Positions 34,055 through 43,869 of a stretch of 64,000 nt of DNA are shown here, one piece after another. Each line of letters starts with the position of its first letter. Positions within the stretch are counted from its first letter, which is position 1. The stretch spans positions 124,001 to 188,000 of the forward strand of contig NZ_SOCA01000007.1 in NCBI RefSeq assembly GCF_004364345.1, in the 5' to 3' direction. The notes beneath the pieces were generated by a model, which was not told the DNA's origin, searched no databases, and saw only the letters and a program-made list of their open reading frames with translations. The position numbers and the translations under genes are program-made. The DNA comes from Prosthecobacter fusiformis. Lineage in GTDB: Bacteria; Verrucomicrobiota; Verrucomicrobiia; Verrucomicrobiales; Verrucomicrobiaceae.

Positions 34055-34145
34055 GCCCTGGTGGTGAGTCCGTCTCATCGTGTCATTTCCGGCGCATCCT
34101 GTGAAAACAGGGTGCGCCTTTTTTCTGCCTGCCGCTTCTCCCAAT

Positions 34146-34589
34146 CCCCACCTCCTGGCGGAGGCGGCTACATGTGGCTGCCCGCACCAGCGGGTGGGAG
34201 GATGCTCTGGTGCTGTCGAGGTTCCCAAACCCCACCTCCTGGCGGAAGCGGCTACATGTGACTGCCCGCACCAGCGGGTGGGCGAATGCTCTAGTGCAGT
34301 CGTGGTTCCCAAACCCCACCTCCTGGCGGAGGCGGCTACATGTGGCTGCCCGCACCAGCGGGTGGGCGAATGCTCTGGTGCTGTCGAGGTTCCCAACCCC
34401 CACCTCCTGGCGGAGGCAGCTACATGTGGCTGCCCGCACCAGCGGGTGGGCGGATGCTCTGGTGCAGTCGAGGCTCCCAAACCCCACCTCCTGGCGGAGG
34501 CGGCTACATGTGGCTGCCCGCACCAGCGGGTGGGCGAATGCTCTGGTGCTGTCGAGGTTCCCAAACCCCACCTCCTGGCGGAGGCGGCA
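34146..34589. repeat. Tandem array of 84-bp units (structured repeat family 1, locus A)
   Basis: Five complete 84-bp units and a partial sixth start at 34146, 34230, 34314, 34398, 34482 and 34566, differing by a few bases each. Each unit holds two small hairpins: CCTCC-TGGC-GGAGG and CCCGC-ACCA-GCGGG, then TGGTGC/AGTGCAG-type filler and TTCCCAAAC. As 84 is divisible by three and the units carry no stops, all frames look open, but no protein is likely. Related sequence lies at 55664-55860 and 58684-58718. Confidence 0.95.
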
Positions 34590-34833
34590 ACGGGATGTGT
34601 GGGGATGGGGTAGATTTTTGTTTTTTCCCCATCGGGGGATTTTGGGGTGTATGGAATTGAGGGTGAATGGTTTATGCATGGGGATCGGTTTCCCCATCGT
34701 TCCCCAAACCCTCCCCATGGGGAAATCTGGGGATGCCATCCCCGGCGCTGACCGGGCCTCGGTCTGGAGTCGTTGTCAGTAAAACAGGGCACGCGGCCAA
34801 TGTCGCCCCGCCTCCGTTTCCCCTGCAAGGACC

Positions 34834-34984: not shown

Positions 34985-35082
34985 TTGGGATTGGTGTTGG
35001 TGGCAACGGTTCGGTATTTCCGAATGGTTCGGGATGGGGCGCGTGCGGCGGACGGGGATTGACGGGTTTCCTGGCTGCCTTT

Positions 35083-35538
35083 ATGATGATGGCTGTGAGC
35101 ACTCGACAAATCAGCCTGAGCGACTTCGCTGCGCATTGTCTGGATGAAATTGAATCCATCCAGGGAGGAGAGACTGTGATCGAGATCCTGAGCCAGGGGA
35201 AAGTCGTGGCAGTGCTGAATCCTGCTCCGCAGGAAACGCATGGAGGGAGTCTGGGCGATTGGATCGGATCAGGAGCGGGGACGGTCAGTGGAATGGACTG
35301 TCTGAATGAGCCAACATTTCAAGATGCCGATGAGTCTGGGCCTGATGACTTTTGGCATCCGCTGTCAGCGCAGGAGCAGGCCGGGCAACAGCAAACGCCG
35401 GTGGTGCATACCCCGGAGGAGCTGCTGGGGGATGGGACGGAGGAGGAATGGGCCGGTTTTGAAGAGGCCCTGGAGGTGTGGCGTTCTGACCAGATGATCC
35501 ATCCACTCATAGGCAGCCCGGTTTCTTTTGCTGCTTGA
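35083..35538 (+). CDS. Phd/YefM-like antitoxin (long form)
   Basis: Protein of about 151 residues (three tandem ATGs at 35083, 35086 and 35089 could start it). The first 45 residues have the Phd/YefM DNA-binding pattern: VSTRQISLSDFAAHCLDEIE, then VIEILSQGKVVAVLNPA. Phd antitoxins are usually 75-95 residues; here an acidic, Gln/Pro-rich linker separates the head from a C-terminal helix (EEEWAGFEEALEVWRSDQ) that would wrap the toxin. It overlaps the PIN toxin gene by 11 bases. Antitoxin role inferred from motif and pairing. Confidence 0.8.
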   Translation: MMMAVSTRQISLSDFAAHCLDEIESIQGGETVIEILSQGKVVAVLNPAPQETHGGSLGDWIGSGAGTVSGMDCLNEPTFQDADESGPDDFWHPLSAQEQAGQQQTPVVHTPEELLGDGTEEEWAGFEEALEVWRSDQMIHPLIGSPVSFAA

Positions 35539-35917
35539 TACGAACATCGTCAGCTACCTTTTCAAGAGGGACAGCCGGGCCGAGGCCTACCTGCCGCATT
35601 TTCAAGGTCAGCGGCTCCACCTGTCCTTTATGACCGTAGCGGAAATCTATCGCTGGCCGTTTGAGAGAAACTGGTCTGAGCCACGAAAGCAGGCCTTGGA
35701 GCTTTTCCTGCGCAGCCACTTCACCGTGCTTCGCTTTGACAACGACCTAGCCTGGACCTGGGCGGAACTTGTCGGCCAAAAGATGCGCGGCCAGCCCATG
35801 TCCGTGGCCGATTCTTGGATCGCCGCCACTGCTCTGCAACATCAGATGCCCTTGGTGACCCACAACGCCCGTCATTTTTTTGGAGTTCCGGGCCTCACGG
35901 TTATTACCGAGGCTTAA
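35528..35917 (+). CDS. VapC-like PIN-domain toxin
   Basis: RNase-type toxin of 129 residues. The PIN acidic residues are Asp4 (LLDTNIVSYLF), Glu39 (TVAEIYR) and Asp95 (SVADSWIAA), with Asn113 in THNARHF at the fourth position. The only available start is TTG at 35528: a stop lies 16 bases upstream in frame and no ATG precedes the LLDTN motif. The start overlaps the antitoxin stop, so translation is probably coupled. Confidence 0.9.
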   Translation: MLLDTNIVSYLFKRDSRAEAYLPHFQGQRLHLSFMTVAEIYRWPFERNWSEPRKQALELFLRSHFTVLRFDNDLAWTWAELVGQKMRGQPMSVADSWIAATALQHQMPLVTHNARHFFGVPGLTVITEA

Positions 35918-35926
35918 ATCCTCTGA

Positions 35927-36854
35927 GGATGTGAAGGAGACGCTACAGCTCAAAGTGGGGAAAGGACCATTGAGGCGAGATATGAGGATGGCACGGTTTG
36001 GCTCACTCAGAAGCTCATTGCCCAGCTCTTCGATGTCAGCGTTAAGACCATTAGCGAGCATCTCCAAAACATCTTTGTCAGCGGCGAACTCTCCGAAAAG
36101 TCAGTTGTCCGGAAATTCCGGATAACTTGCCGCCGACGGCAAGAATTACGACACTCAACACTACAATCTGGACGCCATCATCTCCGTTGGTTACCGGGTG
36201 AGCTCCGTTCGTGCCACCCAGTTCCGCCAGTGGGCGACGGGCATCTTGATGGACTTCGCCATTCGGGGTTATGTTCTGGACCGGAAGCGCATGGAGAATG
36301 GCAGTTTTCTTGGGGAGGATTACTATGAGCATCTGTTGGAGGAGATCCACGAGATCCGCCTGAGCGAGCGGCGCTTTTATCAAAAGGTCACGGACCTTTA
36401 CGCAACGAGTGTGGACTACAATGCAGAGGCCCCCACCACCCTTGGGTTTTTTGCCAAGGTGCAAAACAAGCTCCATTTCGCCATTCATGGCCATACCGCT
36501 GCGGAGTTGATCGTCGAGCGTGCCGACAGCCAGAGACCGCACATGGGCCTCACCAGTTGGGAAAACGCCCTGCAGGGAAAAGTCCTGAAGTCAGATGTGA
36601 TCATCGCCAAGAACTACCTCGCCCAAGAGGAACTGGAATCCCTGGGCCGCATCGTCAATACCTACCTGGAACTTGCCGAGGATCGCGCCCGCCGTCGCAT
36701 TCCCATGACCATGGAGGACTGGGCCAAGCGGCTGGATGCCTTCCTGGAGTTCAATAGTACTTGCCAAACTGAAAGCAAAACGCTTTATGGAACAGCTTTA
36801 GATGGAAGTCTTAGCTTGTCAGCTAAGCTCGATCAATTAAAGCTTTTAACCTAA
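35927..36854 (+). pseudogene. RhuM-family gene, broken at both ends and frameshifted
   Basis: The core of a RhuM-family (PF13310-type) protein is readable in two frames. Frame one gives YEDGTVWLTQKLIAQLF, then KTISEHLQNIFVSGELSEKS and VVRKFRIT. After one extra T at 36127/36128 the second frame continues AADGKNYDTQHYNLDAIIS and VGYRVSSVRATQFRQWATGI to EDWAKRLDAFLEFN. There is no ATG before the first half (in-frame TGA at 35924-35926). The normal C-terminal tail after DAFLEFN is replaced by about 30 unrelated residues, exactly where base composition turns AT-rich (about 36755). A 218-codon open frame from GTG 36198 could still be translated. Confidence 0.82.
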
Positions 36855-36859
36855 AAGTC

Positions 36860-38269
36860 ATGCTTTCCACTTCAAAAAAACTCATTGGTCGAGATAGCGA
36901 ACTTGATCTATTGAAGTCTGCAATTAGTAGATTTGCAGCGGCTACAGCATCGAAAGCAGGACTGGAAATCATTAGTATTTCTGGGGCTGGCGGTGTTGGT
37001 AAGACATACTTGCTAGATACAGTACTTGATGAGACTCAGGCGGCCCTCAAACAAGCGCTCATTCTCAAAATTGATGCCTCCAGTGAGCATTTGCTCAAAG
37101 AGTTTACTTTGATCTTTGACCAGATGTTTGCGCCTACCGAACTGCCTCCTCCAGCGAAATCGAAACACGATTACTTTCCTACCACAAGGTCGTTGATCCG
37201 AAGACAGCATGAATTGATAGGCATGGTGGAGTCTGAAATTTCCAACAACAAGAATCTCAGCGATCAATGCAAAACCATGGCCAAGGCGTTATATAGGCTG
37301 AGTCCTGCCATCAAGTATCTGCCCAAGATCGGACCTGCGGCAGCCATGGCTCTCAAAGGCTTGGAGACGATCAAGGCTGAAGATTATATTGAACCTGCAC
37401 TTGATGTTTTATCTAGTTTGCAGGCACTAAAGGATGAAACTGGCTTTTTCTCTTTTCCCTTAACCAAGACTCGGCTGGCTTCGCTGCGTCATAGCCCTTA
37501 CGAAGCCATAAGTGAAGCTTATCTTTCTGATCTTTCCGCCATGTTGCAGAGCTATCAACGCCAAGACTGGTTTCGTTTTATGCATAGTGCGATAGAGGGT
37601 GTGAACCGGCTCTTCCTAATTGTGGATGATTTCGAAGCAGTAGGGCGTGTCCTCGGTACCTTTCTTGTGGAGAGCCTTTTACCAAGGCTCAAGAATGCTT
37701 CATTCTCTACACTGGTTATCTTTCTTGGCCGCGACAGCGTGTACGACGCCAACAAGGACTTTGCCCATCACCTCGCAGGCAACATCGGGGGGCTGATCAA
37801 ACTGGAACCCTTTTCTTTCGTTGAAGGAGTAAAGTATCTAACTGATTCGGGTTATTCCTCAAGGGAAGCCGCTGAATGGTATCAAAAATCTCATGGGCTG
37901 CCATTTATTTTGCGCTTGCTTGTGGAGAATCGTACTGACGCTGATAAGCAATCTGCACTTTTTTATAAAAGATTTTATGAACGAACCACTCGCTGGATGT
38001 CACTTGAAGAACGCAAATGGTTGACACCCATCTGCTATTTGGACAATGTGAATGAGGGCACTATTAAAGCGCTGCTTCCTCAACAAGACGCTTCACGGAT
38101 CATTGCATGGTTTGAAAGTGAGGCTTCAGTACGCGATGTGAACTCCCCTGTGTTTACCGTCACTCCTTATATTCGTCACATGCTCCTTGAGTATAATCGC
38201 CGCAAAGTCGGAGATCCTGAGCACATAAACCTAGCCAGGATTGCTCAAAAAGCTATGCGGGAAGCTTAA
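36860..38269 (+). CDS. P-loop ATPase of STAND/AAA type (candidate defence sensor)
   Basis: Protein of 469 residues, not assigned to a named family. The start reads KKLIGRDSELDLLKSAISRF, the entry motif of many ORC/STAND-type ATPases. Walker A is GAGGVGKT (residues 42-49) and Walker B LFLIVDDFEAV (251-261). Sensor-like LVIFLGRDSVYD comes at about 283, and from about 300 a helical/winged-helix region (EPFSFVEGVKYLTDSGYSSREAAEWY) like the STAND linker. No C-terminal TPR or WD repeats are present. Codon usage is clearly more AT-rich than flanking genes, so recent transfer is likely. It follows the rhuM remnant by five bases and precedes the DUF262 gene by 12 bases, so it is probably one operon with that gene. 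No Shine-Dalgarno site is visible. Confidence 0.82.
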   Translation: MLSTSKKLIGRDSELDLLKSAISRFAAATASKAGLEIISISGAGGVGKTYLLDTVLDETQAALKQALILKIDASSEHLLKEFTLIFDQMFAPTELPPPAKSKHDYFPTTRSLIRRQHELIGMVESEISNNKNLSDQCKTMAKALYRLSPAIKYLPKIGPAAAMALKGLETIKAEDYIEPALDVLSSLQALKDETGFFSFPLTKTRLASLRHSPYEAISEAYLSDLSAMLQSYQRQDWFRFMHSAIEGVNRLFLIVDDFEAVGRVLGTFLVESLLPRLKNASFSTLVIFLGRDSVYDANKDFAHHLAGNIGGLIKLEPFSFVEGVKYLTDSGYSSREAAEWYQKSHGLPFILRLLVENRTDADKQSALFYKRFYERTTRWMSLEERKWLTPICYLDNVNEGTIKALLPQQDASRIIAWFESEASVRDVNSPVFTVTPYIRHMLLEYNRRKVGDPEHINLARIAQKAMREA

Positions 38270-38281
38270 TATATATTGATT

Positions 38282-40123
38282 ATGGCTAAAATTGAGAACC
38301 ATAAATACACTATTGAAGAGGCGTTTCGAGAATGCTTTTACATCATTCCTGACTATCAGCGCGAATACGTATGGACAGATAAAGAAGTGCAGCAATTGCT
38401 GGCGGATATCGATGAACAAATTGGGGGAGACAACACACGTGAATACTTTATTGGCACCGTATTGGTTTCTCCGGTCGGGGGGCAAAGGCAGCACTTTGAG
38501 GTAATCGATGGACAGCAGCGGTTGACCACATTTTTTCTTCTTCTCTGCGCCCTCAAACATTGTTTTGAGGGAGAAGTGCAATCACAGGCAATCGGCGGAC
38601 TCATCACCACAAGTTACATTTCTGCAGATGGAGAAAACCAAGTCCGTCTCAAATTAGAGCCGCGCTATGAAAATGCTGGCGAGGTCATGACCAGGATAGT
38701 TGATATAGCCAGTGATCCTGAAAAAACTCGTGCTGGTATACAAGCGGCTGGAATAAAAAGTTTTGGGTCCTTGGAACGCCTTCTAAGCGCCTATGGCACG
38801 ATCTATCGTTACCTGCAGAGCAATTATCAGGATCCCAAAACGCTGAAGCGCTATTTCGGTTATTTGGCCAACAATGTAATCTTCTTTCAGATATCCACTG
38901 ATGTGAGCAGTGCGCTAAAGATCTTTGAGACGATCAATGAACGTGGTGTGGGGCTGAATCCGATGGATTTGCTGAAGAATTTACTTTTCACCCAAGTGCT
39001 GAAAGATGATTTTACTAAACTCAAAGGTGAGTGGGAAAAGGTAACAAAGCCGCTGGCCAAAGTAGGGGAGAAACCGCTGCGTTTCTTGCGTTATTTCCTC
39101 ATGGCGAGCTATAGGATTGAAAATGCACGCAGAGATGGAGTAGTGCGTGAAGATGAGATTTATGACTGGTTCGTGAAAAAGGAGAACGAAGTCCTTTGTA
39201 ACTACAAGGCGGCACCGTTTGCCTTCGTGCGAAAAATCATTATTAGTGTAGAATGCTACGTGAACTTTACGCAGCAGCGTGATAATAATGGCAATGCTAA
39301 TGTGGCCATGAACAATCTGGCTCAATTGACAGGAGGAGCCTTCAGTTTGCACTATGTACTGCTGTTGGCTGTGAGTCCCTTACCCCCAGCATTATTTGAT
39401 CATTTTGTAAAGCAGTTGGAAAGTTTTCTATTTTACTTTATATTCACCAAAAGCCCGACAAAAGAACTGGAGCGAAGTTTCTCAATCTGGGCTGATGAGT
39501 TGCGTTTCGTTTGTGAGATTGCTGATCAAGCACTGCAGCGTGAGCAATTGAATATCTTTCTAATGAATCGATTTCAAGCAGGAATGAAGGCGAAAGAGCC
39601 TGAACTCAGCGACGGAATAAAACGATATAATTTTGAATCGATGCAACAGTACCGAACGCGGTATCTACTACGGAAACTGGCCCAGCATGTGGATATGGCT
39701 TTCCGAGGTATCAAGGTTGCAGGATCTTTAGATGAGTATAGAGGCCTGGAGATCGAGCACATCCTGCCCAACACACCGACAGCGGATCTGCTAGCCGACT
39801 TTAAAAGGAAAAATCCAGGGCGGGACTATAATCAAGAGAAGCTTCGTTTGGGAAATTTGACCCTTCTAGAAAAGCCGCTAAATATTATCGCAGGAAACAA
39901 TTTCTTTGAACTAAAGAAGCCTAAATACACCGCATGTGGAAGTTACCTGACGAGAAGCCTCGTAAAGCTGGAGGAATGTGGGAATAATACCTCCATTACG
40001 CGCATTAATACCAAGCTCGTAGCGTTCGACGAATGGACTGCTGAGACCATCGATCTAAGGCAGGCTATTCTCATAGCACTTGTGAAAGAAATATGGTCGA
40101 TTAGTCCAATTGATGTTCAGTGA
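38282..40123 (+). CDS. DUF262/DUF1524 protein (GmrSD-like nuclease)
   Basis: Protein of 613 residues. The N-terminal DUF262 domain has PDYQREYVW (residues 23-31), FEVIDGQQRLTT (72-83, the DGQQR NTP-binding motif) and IFETINERGVGLNPMDLLK (214-232). The C-terminal DUF1524 HNH-type domain has GLEIEHILPN (488-497), LRLGNLTLLEKPLN (521-534) and NNFFELKKPKY (539-549). This is the single-chain form of GmrS-GmrD, type IV restriction enzymes that cut modified DNA, and of related anti-phage proteins such as SspE and BrxU. The ATG at 38282 is preferred to a TTG six bases upstream. AT-rich like its upstream ATPase partner. The target (for example glucosylated cytosine) is unknown. Confidence 0.9.
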   Translation: MAKIENHKYTIEEAFRECFYIIPDYQREYVWTDKEVQQLLADIDEQIGGDNTREYFIGTVLVSPVGGQRQHFEVIDGQQRLTTFFLLLCALKHCFEGEVQSQAIGGLITTSYISADGENQVRLKLEPRYENAGEVMTRIVDIASDPEKTRAGIQAAGIKSFGSLERLLSAYGTIYRYLQSNYQDPKTLKRYFGYLANNVIFFQISTDVSSALKIFETINERGVGLNPMDLLKNLLFTQVLKDDFTKLKGEWEKVTKPLAKVGEKPLRFLRYFLMASYRIENARRDGVVREDEIYDWFVKKENEVLCNYKAAPFAFVRKIIISVECYVNFTQQRDNNGNANVAMNNLAQLTGGAFSLHYVLLLAVSPLPPALFDHFVKQLESFLFYFIFTKSPTKELERSFSIWADELRFVCEIADQALQREQLNIFLMNRFQAGMKAKEPELSDGIKRYNFESMQQYRTRYLLRKLAQHVDMAFRGIKVAGSLDEYRGLEIEHILPNTPTADLLADFKRKNPGRDYNQEKLRLGNLTLLEKPLNIIAGNNFFELKKPKYTACGSYLTRSLVKLEECGNNTSITRINTKLVAFDEWTAETIDLRQAILIALVKEIWSISPIDVQ

Positions 40124-40318
40124 AACGCTTAATCGCAATTAGCGCTGATTTAATGGCGTTTCAGATTAAAGCGACATTTAACGGATGTAGTTCCCCAATT
40201 ATAGATTCAAGAGTTTTCTCTTTTGTGTCCCCTGTTCGCTGTGCGCAAGACTCGTAAATCGAGTTGTTTCTGCCGCATCCTTGATTTGTTCTTTGGGGTT
40301 GTTGGGGTATTTTGGGGG

Positions 40319-41425
40319 ATGACGTTGAGTGATCTTGGATGGAATGCGGTTTTTGAGGAGGCGTTTGGCCCGTTTTATAAGGCGGGCTGGGTGCCGGCGC
40401 GGTTGACGCGGGATAACAAGATCACGTATGGGGCGCTGACGGGCGATGGGGATGAGTATGAGGCGGTGATGTGTGGGAAGGTTTACCACGATGCGGAGAC
40501 GGATGCGGAGCTGCCGGCGGTGGGGGACTGGGTGGCGCTGGAGGTGGGCGGGGAGGATGCGGAGCATGTGATCCGCGCGCGGCTGCCGCGGCAGACGTGT
40601 CTTTCCCGCAAGATGGCGGGGAAGAGTACGGAGGAGCAGGTGATCGCCGCGAATGTGGATGTGGTGGTGGTGGTGACGGATGCGGGGACGGACTTTAGCC
40701 TGCGGCGGATGGAGCGGTACTTTACGATCATCGCCCGCAGTGGGGCGAAGGCGGTGGTGCTGGTGAACAAGAGCGACCTTTATGAGAAGGAGGACAATGA
40801 GGCGGCGGCGGAGGAGATCCGTGCGCTGAATCCGGCGGCGGATGTGCACATCACGTGTGCGACGAAGAAGCGGAGCCTGGCGGTGCTGCGTCAATATTTG
40901 ACGAAGGGGCGGACGGTGACGTTGATCGGGTCCAGCGGGGTGGGGAAGTCGTCGGTGCTGAATCAGCTCCTGGGGGATGAGTACCAGTGGGTGGATGAGG
41001 TGAATGAGCTGACGGGGAAGGGGCGGCATACGACGACGGCGCGGGAGCTGATCATCCTGCCGAAGGGGGGCGTGCTGATCGATAATCCGGGCATCAAGGA
41101 GGTGCAGATGTGGACGAATGAGGTGATCCTGCGCGAGGGGTTTGCGGATATTGAGGCGCTGTCGCTGCAATGCCAGTTTGGGGACTGCAAGCATGGGAAG
41201 GACAAGGGGTGTGCGATCCGTGCGGCGATGGAGGCGGGGGAGCTGGATGCGGGGCGGATGGAGGGCTTTTTGAAGCTGGATGAGGAGATCGAGAAGCTGC
41301 GGCGGAGCCAGAAGAAGCGGCAGATGACGGTGGAGCGGAGATCGAAGCGGGAACTGCAGGCGCGGGTGCGGGTGTATGAGAAGCGGCGGGACCCGGATCA
41401 TGAGCTGGAGCCGCGGGAGCGGTGA
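40319..41425 (+). CDS. rsgA: RsgA, ribosome small-subunit GTPase
   Basis: Circularly permuted GTPase of 368 residues that assists 30S maturation. An OB-like N-terminus precedes G4 VLVNKSDLY (148-156), then G1 GSSGVGKSS (204-212) and G3 DNPGIKEV. The zinc-finger segment has CQFGDCKHGKDKGC. The ATG at 40319 begins MTLSDLGWNAVFEEAF; the open upstream leader is Cys/Phe-rich and unconserved. It marks the return to GC-rich host-like codon use after the AT-rich module. Confidence 0.95.
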   Translation: MTLSDLGWNAVFEEAFGPFYKAGWVPARLTRDNKITYGALTGDGDEYEAVMCGKVYHDAETDAELPAVGDWVALEVGGEDAEHVIRARLPRQTCLSRKMAGKSTEEQVIAANVDVVVVVTDAGTDFSLRRMERYFTIIARSGAKAVVLVNKSDLYEKEDNEAAAEEIRALNPAADVHITCATKKRSLAVLRQYLTKGRTVTLIGSSGVGKSSVLNQLLGDEYQWVDEVNELTGKGRHTTTARELIILPKGGVLIDNPGIKEVQMWTNEVILREGFADIEALSLQCQFGDCKHGKDKGCAIRAAMEAGELDAGRMEGFLKLDEEIEKLRRSQKKRQMTVERRSKRELQARVRVYEKRRDPDHELEPRER

Positions 41426-42790: not shown

Positions 42791-42845
42791 GGGCGGGTTG
42801 CGGGACGATTTTTCAAACTACTTTTTATTCCCACGGATCTCTGCC

Positions 42846-43169
42846 ATGAAAACTTCCAATCTCCAAGAAAAGCAGGGCGAATATCAGACGAAGCCAGTCA
42901 TCCTGGATGGGCACCGTTATGCGGTGGATCCGATGTCGGATTCGTTTACTGAGGTATTGGTCGCGTGCTTCGCGGAAGGGAAGAAAAAGGCGCTGGCCAG
43001 GAAGGCTGGCCTGAAGGCCTTTTCGACTGGTAAAAAGAGGGCAGCCAAGCCGGTGCAGGGAAGTCAATCATCGACGGTTTTACGGGCGGCTAAATCACCC
43101 GCCAGACGGGCAGGCACCGCTGCAAAAACGCTTCGCAAAAAGACCAAGGAAGCTTCAAAGAATGTCTAA
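42846..43169 (+). CDS. Small basic protein, probable antitoxin partner of the zeta-type kinase
   Basis: Protein of 107 residues, ATG at 42846. The N-terminal half has VILDGHRYAVDPMSDSFTEVLVACFAEGKKKALARKAG; the rest is a Lys/Arg/Ala-rich tail (KKRAAKPVQGSQ, then RAAKSPARRAGTAAKTLRKK). No family is recognised. Its stop overlaps the zeta-type gene start by eight bases, the arrangement of many toxin-antitoxin pairs. The antitoxin role is inferred from position only; the basic tail could bind nucleic acid. Confidence 0.7.
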   Translation: MKTSNLQEKQGEYQTKPVILDGHRYAVDPMSDSFTEVLVACFAEGKKKALARKAGLKAFSTGKKRAAKPVQGSQSSTVLRAAKSPARRAGTAAKTLRKKTKEASKNV

Positions 43170-43869
43170 ACCTCATTTGTGGATCATTGCCGGGCCAAAT
43201 GGGGCTGGAAAGACCACGTTGGTCCAGAGCGGTCCGTTTGCGGATTTGCTGTCCGCGTGTGAATTCATCAATCCCGATGCCATCACGCTCGCCTACCTGC
43301 AGGAGAGCGGGATCACCGCTTGGAAAGATGCCTCCAAGGAAATGCTGAAGTCCACTTTTATAAAAGCGGCCGATGATGCTGAGGCGTTGTTGTATAAACG
43401 CATGGAGGAAGGGGCTGCGGTGGTGATCGAGTCGGTATTGAGCACTTCAAAATACCGTGCGGTGGTGGAGCGTGTGCTGGAACTGCAGGGACGCTTTATG
43501 CTTATTTATCTGGCTTTAGATTCCGCAGCACTCTCGCAAGCACGAGTCCTTCAAAGAACGCTCGAAGGCGGGCATGATGTGCCTGCGGAGAAACTGGAGC
43601 GACGTTGGAAAGACTCGCTCGGATCGTTGCCCTGGTTTGCTACTCGTGCGCATCGCTTTTGGATTCTGGACAACTCGAAGGAGTCCGTTACTGCAAATGA
43701 GCAACCCATCGTGAGCGGTTCAAAATCCGCTGTCAGCTTGCATCTTATCCCGAGTCCATCTCTTTGTCCGGCCATCTCCGAAGTCATCAGCAGCCATGCG
43801 GCGGGTGCTCCGGCTGGCCTATGGCATTTTAATATCTCCACCTCTGACATGGCCTTATCAGCGGCTTAA
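43162..43869 (+). CDS. Zeta-toxin-like P-loop kinase (COG4185 type)
   Basis: Protein of 235 residues. It starts MSKPHLWIIAGPNGAGKTT, with Walker A GPNGAGKTT at residues 11-19. FINPDAIT at about 34-41 and the VVIESVLSTSKYRAVVE block (lid/substrate region) also fit the zeta-toxin/COG4185 kinase family. Such proteins phosphorylate UDP-N-acetylglucosamine in classic zeta toxins; the substrate here is unknown. The gene ends six bases before the DUF58 gene and interrupts an otherwise typical moxR-DUF58 junction. Confidence 0.85.
   Translation: MSKPHLWIIAGPNGAGKTTLVQSGPFADLLSACEFINPDAITLAYLQESGITAWKDASKEMLKSTFIKAADDAEALLYKRMEEGAAVVIESVLSTSKYRAVVERVLELQGRFMLIYLALDSAALSQARVLQRTLEGGHDVPAEKLERRWKDSLGSLPWFATRAHRFWILDNSKESVTANEQPIVSGSKSAVSLHLIPSPSLCPAISEVISSHAAGAPAGLWHFNISTSDMALSAA

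Follow-up and report, generated by a model that had tools for sequence, protein, structure and literature searches.

A GmrSD-type nuclease gene with varied upstream partners lies next to a rare P-loop NTPase gene in Prosthecobacter fusiformis

We analysed a stretch of 64,000 nucleotides from Prosthecobacter fusiformis (contig NZ_SOCA01000007.1, positions 124,001-188,000, forward strand; hereafter the window, whose own coordinates are used throughout). Two adjacent genes on its plus strand encode a rare P-loop nucleoside triphosphatase (NTPase) of 469 residues, called the ATPase below (36860-38269), and a GmrSD-type nuclease with DUF262 and DUF1524 domains, 613 residues long from its ATG (38282-40123). 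An earlier note had read them as a candidate new two-gene anti-phage system. The proposed pair probably does not represent a new, conserved system, and checking it exposed a sharply defined partner pattern; what we consider most worth following is how partners change around a nuclease gene that itself hardly varies. We think it likely that the nuclease is autonomous, that it stands next to a separate candidate defence ATPase, and that partners are exchanged upstream of the nuclease. We favour this reading because of the identity breakpoints found between related loci and because the ATPase is absent from the loci of nuclease relatives.

The nuclease was characterised by Pfam and PADLOC scans, by alignment and by a structure model. 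An N-terminal DUF262 and a C-terminal DUF1524 lie in one polypeptide, which matches GmrSD_N at 2.9e-40 (139 bits, cut-off 33.2) and GmrSD_C at 2.1e-15 (57.3 bits, cut-off 23). The protein is thus as complete as the earlier note had described it, and DGQQR (residues 76-80) and His493, within IEHILP, stand where they had been numbered. The other motifs are QR (26-27, preceded in the window nuclease by a Tyr that may or may not correspond to Tyr25 of DndI), FxxxN (215-219), EHILP (492-496), Asn525 and Asn534. In an alignment of 64 proteins, which includes two at 37-38% identity, QR, DGQQR, the F and N of FxxxN, Asn525 and Asn534 were kept in all 64 sequences and His493 in 63. The AlphaFold model built from this alignment had a mean predicted local distance difference test score (pLDDT) of 88.0 and a predicted template modelling score of 0.69, and the solved structure that it matched best was DndI (9jfl, template modelling (TM) scores 0.66/0.68), followed by SspE. 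The best PADLOC profiles were Orf5 (4.4e-81) and HEC-06 (1.8e-66, residues 4-572), both of which cover nearly the whole protein. Judged by these domains and motifs, the nuclease is a member of a known family, and the reading of the second gene as a GmrSD-family defence-type nuclease in a foreign-looking, defence-like setting is supported. That part of the proposed anti-phage module stood; the pairing of the ATPase with the nuclease did not.

In the explanation that we favour, the nuclease would be a self-sufficient enzyme of the GmrSD/HEC-06 type. By family membership, and as described for BrxU, GmrSD and their relatives, DUF262 would bind and hydrolyse NTP and control the nuclease; it would probably sense modified phage DNA, and this sensing would unlock the C-terminal His-Me nuclease. 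The gene itself would be a promiscuous passenger that sits downstream of other defence genes, and recombination may have swapped its upstream neighbours, with the join at its start codon. In the window, the slot upstream is taken by the gene of the rare, probably STAND-like NTPase. Most likely this is a candidate defence gene in its own right and not a dedicated regulator, and it would have arrived in the same AT-rich block as the nuclease gene.

Relatives of the nuclease were found at 27 loci in viral contigs (60-67% identical), at 74 loci in genome contigs (mostly 59-75% identical, with a few distant or fragmentary) and on one Caballeronia plasmid (62% identical), where an SMC-like gene precedes the nuclease gene. 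We fetched 105 relative loci, of which 97 scored above 480 bits; the eight at or below 480 bits (distant or fragmentary) were left out, and the 84 of the 97 with more than 400 bp upstream are the base of the partner counts. Partners were counted by clusters of open reading frames (ORFs), where 'none' means no same-strand ORF of 100 residues within 400 bases, and a second time with tblastn, for which matches to representative partner proteins had to end no more than 900 bases from the nuclease start; in both counts the family names rest on PADLOC and Pfam scans of representatives only. The ORF clusters gave type I restriction-modification (R-M) genes at 17 loci, BREX at 13, SNF2 helicases at 11, capP at 6, type III R-M at 5, other genes at 18 and none at 14. 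With tblastn we obtained type I R-M at 13 loci, BREX at 13, capP at 10, SNF2 helicases at 8, type III R-M at 5 and none of these at 35. One of five defence-gene kinds, the helicases being of the BREX/Hma/DISARM sort, was therefore found upstream in 49 to 52 of the 84 loci. The two counts disagree at 13 loci, and at least 4 of the 14 'none' calls are wrong: L039, L055 and L059 ('none' by ORF clusters) follow capP, as does L045 ('other'), and L054 was BREX by an earlier ORF count, 'none' by ORF clusters and in no class by tblastn.

Some partners were seen in a single case: AbiV (L070), PDC-S06 with a helical restriction endonuclease (L077), HNH (L041), HmaC (L089) and JetC of Wadjet (L091). At one helicase locus (L083) a PD-T7-3 gene is the last before the nuclease. 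In the Wadjet-like locus the JetC profile scores 1669.8 bits and is followed by a nuclease relative whose match is frame-split; the same holds for the nuclease matches in L084, L089, L097, L104 and L105, and these copies may be broken or mis-sequenced. The literature already places GmrSD genes alongside type I R-M, Hma and BREX, according to excerpts of PMC11411939 and PMC12839542; in the portions of the literature returned by our search, no published account matched this pattern of changing nuclease partners.

We then compared loci whose nucleases are nearly the same and whose partners differ. The set comprises 115 pairs, not independent of each other, from 27 loci, with nucleases 93.1-99.3% identical and different partner classes. 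None of the 115 pairs had upstream homology within 1.5 kb (blastn, 1e-5); a downstream match of some kind was present in 22, and at least 300 bases were shared downstream in 13. Mean DNA identity was 0.24-0.32 over the 120 bases upstream, compared with 0.88-0.95 over the first 300 bases of the gene, and it rose abruptly across the start codon: the 30 bases that precede it average 0.32, and the 30 bases that open the gene average 0.94. For pairs of the same partner class (n=26, ORF-cluster labels) upstream identity was 0.55-0.62, and the 98 different-partner pairs obtained with ORF-cluster labels gave the same picture as the 115. In the most extreme pair, L024 and L025 from the viral collection, the nucleases are 99.3% identical, one of them standing behind BREX and the other behind type III R-M. 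The simplest interpretation of these sequence comparisons is an exchange of what lies upstream around a nuclease gene that remains in place. As a separate observation, some such viral-collection contigs have downstream sequence in common, which suggests prophage cargo slots.

We also mapped the partner labels onto a tree; of its 63 non-redundant nucleases, 33 carry one of the five named partner classes (tblastn labels). BREX (9 changes, shuffled mean 8.9), helicase (6 and 5.8) and type III (2 and 2.0) were scattered like shuffled labels. A cruder test, in which 'none', 'other' and contig-edge were treated as classes, gave 38 changes versus 41.4 after shuffling (12 of 200 shuffles as low) and looked nearly random; with the five named classes, real clustering of type I and capP emerges (see below).

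The first gene of the window was identified from its ORF, from Pfam and from alignment with a relative. The GRDSEL entry and both Walker motifs named in the earlier note are present (Walker A GAGGVGKT with Lys48 as numbered; Walker B IVDDFEA, by eye). The C-terminus has a possible winged-helix region (by eye) and no recognised repeats or effector domain. Matches to AAA_16 (29.2 bits, gathering score 32.6) and AAA_22 (25.7, gathering score 27) are P-loop-like and below both gathering scores, those to NB-ARC, NACHT and nSTAND were weaker than AAA_16, a single-sequence AlphaFold model had a mean pLDDT of 36.3, and a search of the PDB gave nothing better than E 0.03. From these sequence features, the ATPase is probably a compact, minimal STAND-like NTPase.

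The ATPase family is very rare in the samples that we searched, which total 1,842 genome scans with overlap between samples. Protein searches met the ATPase once among 288 genomes of the phylum and, at E 0.001 or better, once among 68 genomes of the family; both times the match was the ATPase itself. A single full-length relative (L172, at locus L174) was recovered from 398 Pseudomonadota genomes; it aligns end to end, is 27% identical over 476 aligned columns and conserves the motifs. A two-sequence profile made from the window ATPase and L172 found only L172 in 348 genomes of the latter's order, P-loop-only matches in 3 of 294 Planctomycetota genomes, and matches in 3 of 395 Bacteroidota genomes. 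Two of these three cover the P-loop alone; the third, weak and in two parts, is to a larger NTPase that carries TPR-like repeats at its C-terminus (L184). The ATPase was not found in plasmids or phages, nor in viral or genome contigs, the contig search being fit for close relatives only; L172 as query had no match in viral contigs, plasmids or phages, and the two-sequence profile none in viral contigs. Several candidates were rejected: L131 and L135 fall in frames with ORFs that resemble RecR (by eye), L173/L175, a chance match in Pseudomonadota, reads like a transposase (by eye), and L128-L130, L132, L177-L180, L182 and L183 cover the N-terminal P-loop region only. Weak matches at E 0.05 to 0.2 were L133, L134 and L136.

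At the locus of the full-length relative, transposase genes lie on both sides, one of them downstream, and a divergent gene stands upstream, which reads like an MBL-fold protein (by eye) and has no match in Pfam or PADLOC. An OLD-type ATPase gene and, by eye, UvrD-type-helicase-like and recombinase-like genes lie within 10 kb, and the 19 kb fetched around the relative contain no DUF262 match. Our best guess is a minimal STAND-like NTPase that lives as a defence gene or with mobile elements.

Could the two genes nevertheless form a dedicated system, in which the STAND-like ATPase would sense a phage cue and license or restrain the nuclease? WonA, which apparently controls WonB, and RdrA-RdrB would be parallels; RdrA activates RdrB, as stated in an excerpt of PMC10952713, and accessory-dependent GmrSD systems are described in portions of PMC12137116 and PMC11411939. 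The common strand, the 12-base gap and the shared AT-rich block speak for such a pair. Recurrence of the ATPase beside the nuclease, set beforehand as the test of the proposal, was not observed: the ATPase is absent from all 105 loci with nuclease relatives (tblastn) and was missing again when partners were counted by tblastn, and it was absent from 50 whole genomes carrying nuclease relatives, a search that lacked a positive control and whose empty answer shows little. Because the ATPase is missing from the relative loci, because the nuclease relatives stand behind unrelated genes, and because the full-length ATPase relative, set between a divergent gene on its upstream side and a transposase gene downstream, has no DUF262 match in the 19 kb around it, a dedicated and conserved two-gene system is not supported by these comparisons, and we regard it as unlikely. 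No published account of this ATPase-nuclease pair was matched in what our literature search returned; the nuclease alone matches the profile of HEC-06, a named single-gene defence family, with the Orf5 profile scoring higher. A regulatory link from the ATPase to the nuclease is possible; the ATPase may also act alone or regulate something else. A bolder combination would make the nuclease a general plug-in behind at least five unrelated defence sets, with its gene as a homology handle for upstream swaps, joined here to a new minimal STAND NTPase as a new sensor-nuclease pair; we give this no more than a small chance.

Several findings weigh against an autonomous nuclease with freely exchanged partners. 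The 12-base gap, common strand and common composition fit one operon acquired together, promoter-like sites were not above chance (6 found versus 5.6 expected), and, according to excerpts of PMC12137116 and PMC11411939, the two-gene GmrSD systems GrwAB and TgvAB depend on their second protein. Sampling of the ATPase family is so sparse that a genuine but rare pair might have escaped notice. The nearest relative of the nuclease (L087, 75% identical) stands behind type I R-M genes and an uncharacterised gene of 176 residues, so that stand-alone action is a presumption for this branch. Other genes can also follow the nuclease: in 30 of 80 loci a same-strand ORF of at least 100 residues starts within 100 bases downstream. 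On the tree, type I labels cluster (4 changes versus 9.6 after shuffling, 0 of 500 shuffles as low), as do capP labels (2 versus 3.9, 3 of 500), and all five classes together gave 13 changes versus 18.1 (1 of 200). Partner exchange thus carries some history.

Another reading is that the nuclease might recognise self-marks set by the methyltransferases of its neighbours, in the way that SspE and DndI read phosphorothioate; in the window it would then be a stranded effector lacking modification genes. In favour of this, the type I partner loci carry HsdM and type I partners cluster on the tree, BREX and type III systems are known to include methyltransferases, and in the fold comparison the nuclease comes closest to DndI and SspE, which both read phosphorothioate. 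However, many loci have no recognised upstream modification system (ORF calling left 14 of 84 without an adjoining gene on the same strand, at least 4 of these being mis-called), 6 to 10 loci follow a capP gene, and a scan for [DNS]PP[YFW] gave one unconvincing match in the window. DndC was not found in the genome of the organism itself, although the control was weak (no control genome passed the cut-off), and dnd or ssp was the best-matching family of no partner protein scanned. We therefore look on mark reading as a long shot. Phosphorothioate reading in particular was set aside on the DndC result, with its weak control; the ssp genes lay outside that search.

The surroundings of the two genes were as the earlier note had sketched them. 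The ORFs are both intact and lie on the same strand, 12 bases apart; taken mechanically, the nuclease ORF begins at a TTG at 38276, and the ATG lies at 38282. The G+C content of the pair is 44.9%, whereas 538 overlapping stretches of the same length from the rest of the 64 kb average 58.6% (standard deviation 1.9) and never fall below 54.4%. Upstream, on the plus strand, are a VapBC-like pair (35059-35917), with a PIN toxin at 35528-35917 (Pfam PIN 5.2e-15) and a putative antitoxin that matches no Pfam family, and a rhuM remnant of the PDC-S05 family (35930-36854, start approximate). The frame of the latter is disrupted and its 3' end apparently replaced: its later part (36198-36854) matches Virulence_RhuM at 6.8e-83 and PADLOC PDC-S05, and the earlier part was recognised by eye in another frame. 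Between sucD and the VapBC-like pair, an 84-base unit is repeated six times in tandem (34055-34675), with long ORFs on both strands.

The AT-rich, foreign-looking block that holds both genes extends from about 36750 to 40272, as judged from the G+C profile, the end of the PDC-S05 match and the start of homology with congeners; its edges are approximate, the left one inside the rhuM 3' end and the right one before rsgA. On the left, G+C drops near 36,750, at the point where the PDC-S05 match stops (residue 187, about 36,758), and rhuM therefore seems cut at its 3' end too; the junction of the block is probably located there. On the right, the DNA becomes homologous to that of four congeneric genomes from 40273 onwards (nearest congener) or from 40315 to 40363 (the others), which is at rsgA, and the VapBC, rhuM, ATPase and nuclease proteins of the window are unmatched in the 4 to 11 kb before rsgA of these congeners. 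The block was therefore probably acquired, in a spot upstream of rsgA whose contents differ between close species. The nearest congener (L167) has other genes there, including an apparently different, split DUF262 gene (by eye).

Two genes in a decaying island might also be neighbours by chance, with no joint or defence significance. The broken rhuM next to them and the rarity of the ATPase family would agree with this, but both frames are intact with their catalytic motifs, both genes share a composition foreign to the region, and the nuclease family is found repeatedly behind defence genes; we thus consider mere chance very unlikely.

Further along the window, at 42798-43869, a zeta-toxin-like kinase gene (Pfam Zeta_toxin 9.1e-09), preceded by a small overlapping gene and flanked by a MoxR-like and a DUF58-like gene (by eye), resembles an inserted toxin-antitoxin pair. 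Between 30000 and 46000 the GC skew, negative at first, becomes positive around the island, and its cumulative minimum lies near 34 kb; gene orientation may explain this change of sign.

If the nuclease works behind every partner, it would form a general second defence layer against modified phage DNA, and its gene would be a natural anchor for the exchange of defence systems, making the rearrangement of defence islands directly testable. The ATPase, for its part, points to a small uncharacterised NTPase family. Features that may link it to STAND/AAA_16 NTPases are the GR..E entry, Walker A and B, a winged-helix-like tail (by eye) and a weak match to the TPR-repeat NTPase L184; it differs from them in having only 469 residues, no recognised C-terminal repeats or effector domain, and a score below Pfam gathering. 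GrwAB and TgvAB resemble the window pair in that a GmrSD nuclease is encoded with a second gene, but their second protein has DUF262, whereas the partner in the window is a P-loop NTPase with no DUF262 match (Pfam).

For the nuclease, DndI and SspE are the closest solved folds and share DGQQR and the His-Me nuclease; in contrast, identity to DndI in the fold alignment is 16%, and DndC was not found, with a weak control, in the genome to which the window belongs. HEC-06 and PADLOC Orf5 are alike in the near full-length profile match, the single DUF262 and DUF1524 polypeptide and the occurrence with other defence genes, although the Orf5 profile scores above HEC-06 for the window nuclease. In portions of the published texts, HEC-06 is a GmrSD-like protein with independent action (PMC11411939), and assays are said to show it to be antiviral (PMC12988326). 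BrxU (HEC-05), a type IV enzyme inside BREX, is likewise a DUF262 and DUF1524 protein that travels with BREX, and it acts independently of BREX according to excerpts of PMC8565348 and PMC12707154. The brxU gene, however, lies between brxC and pglX, whereas relatives of the window nuclease follow recognised BREX genes and also several other kinds of system.

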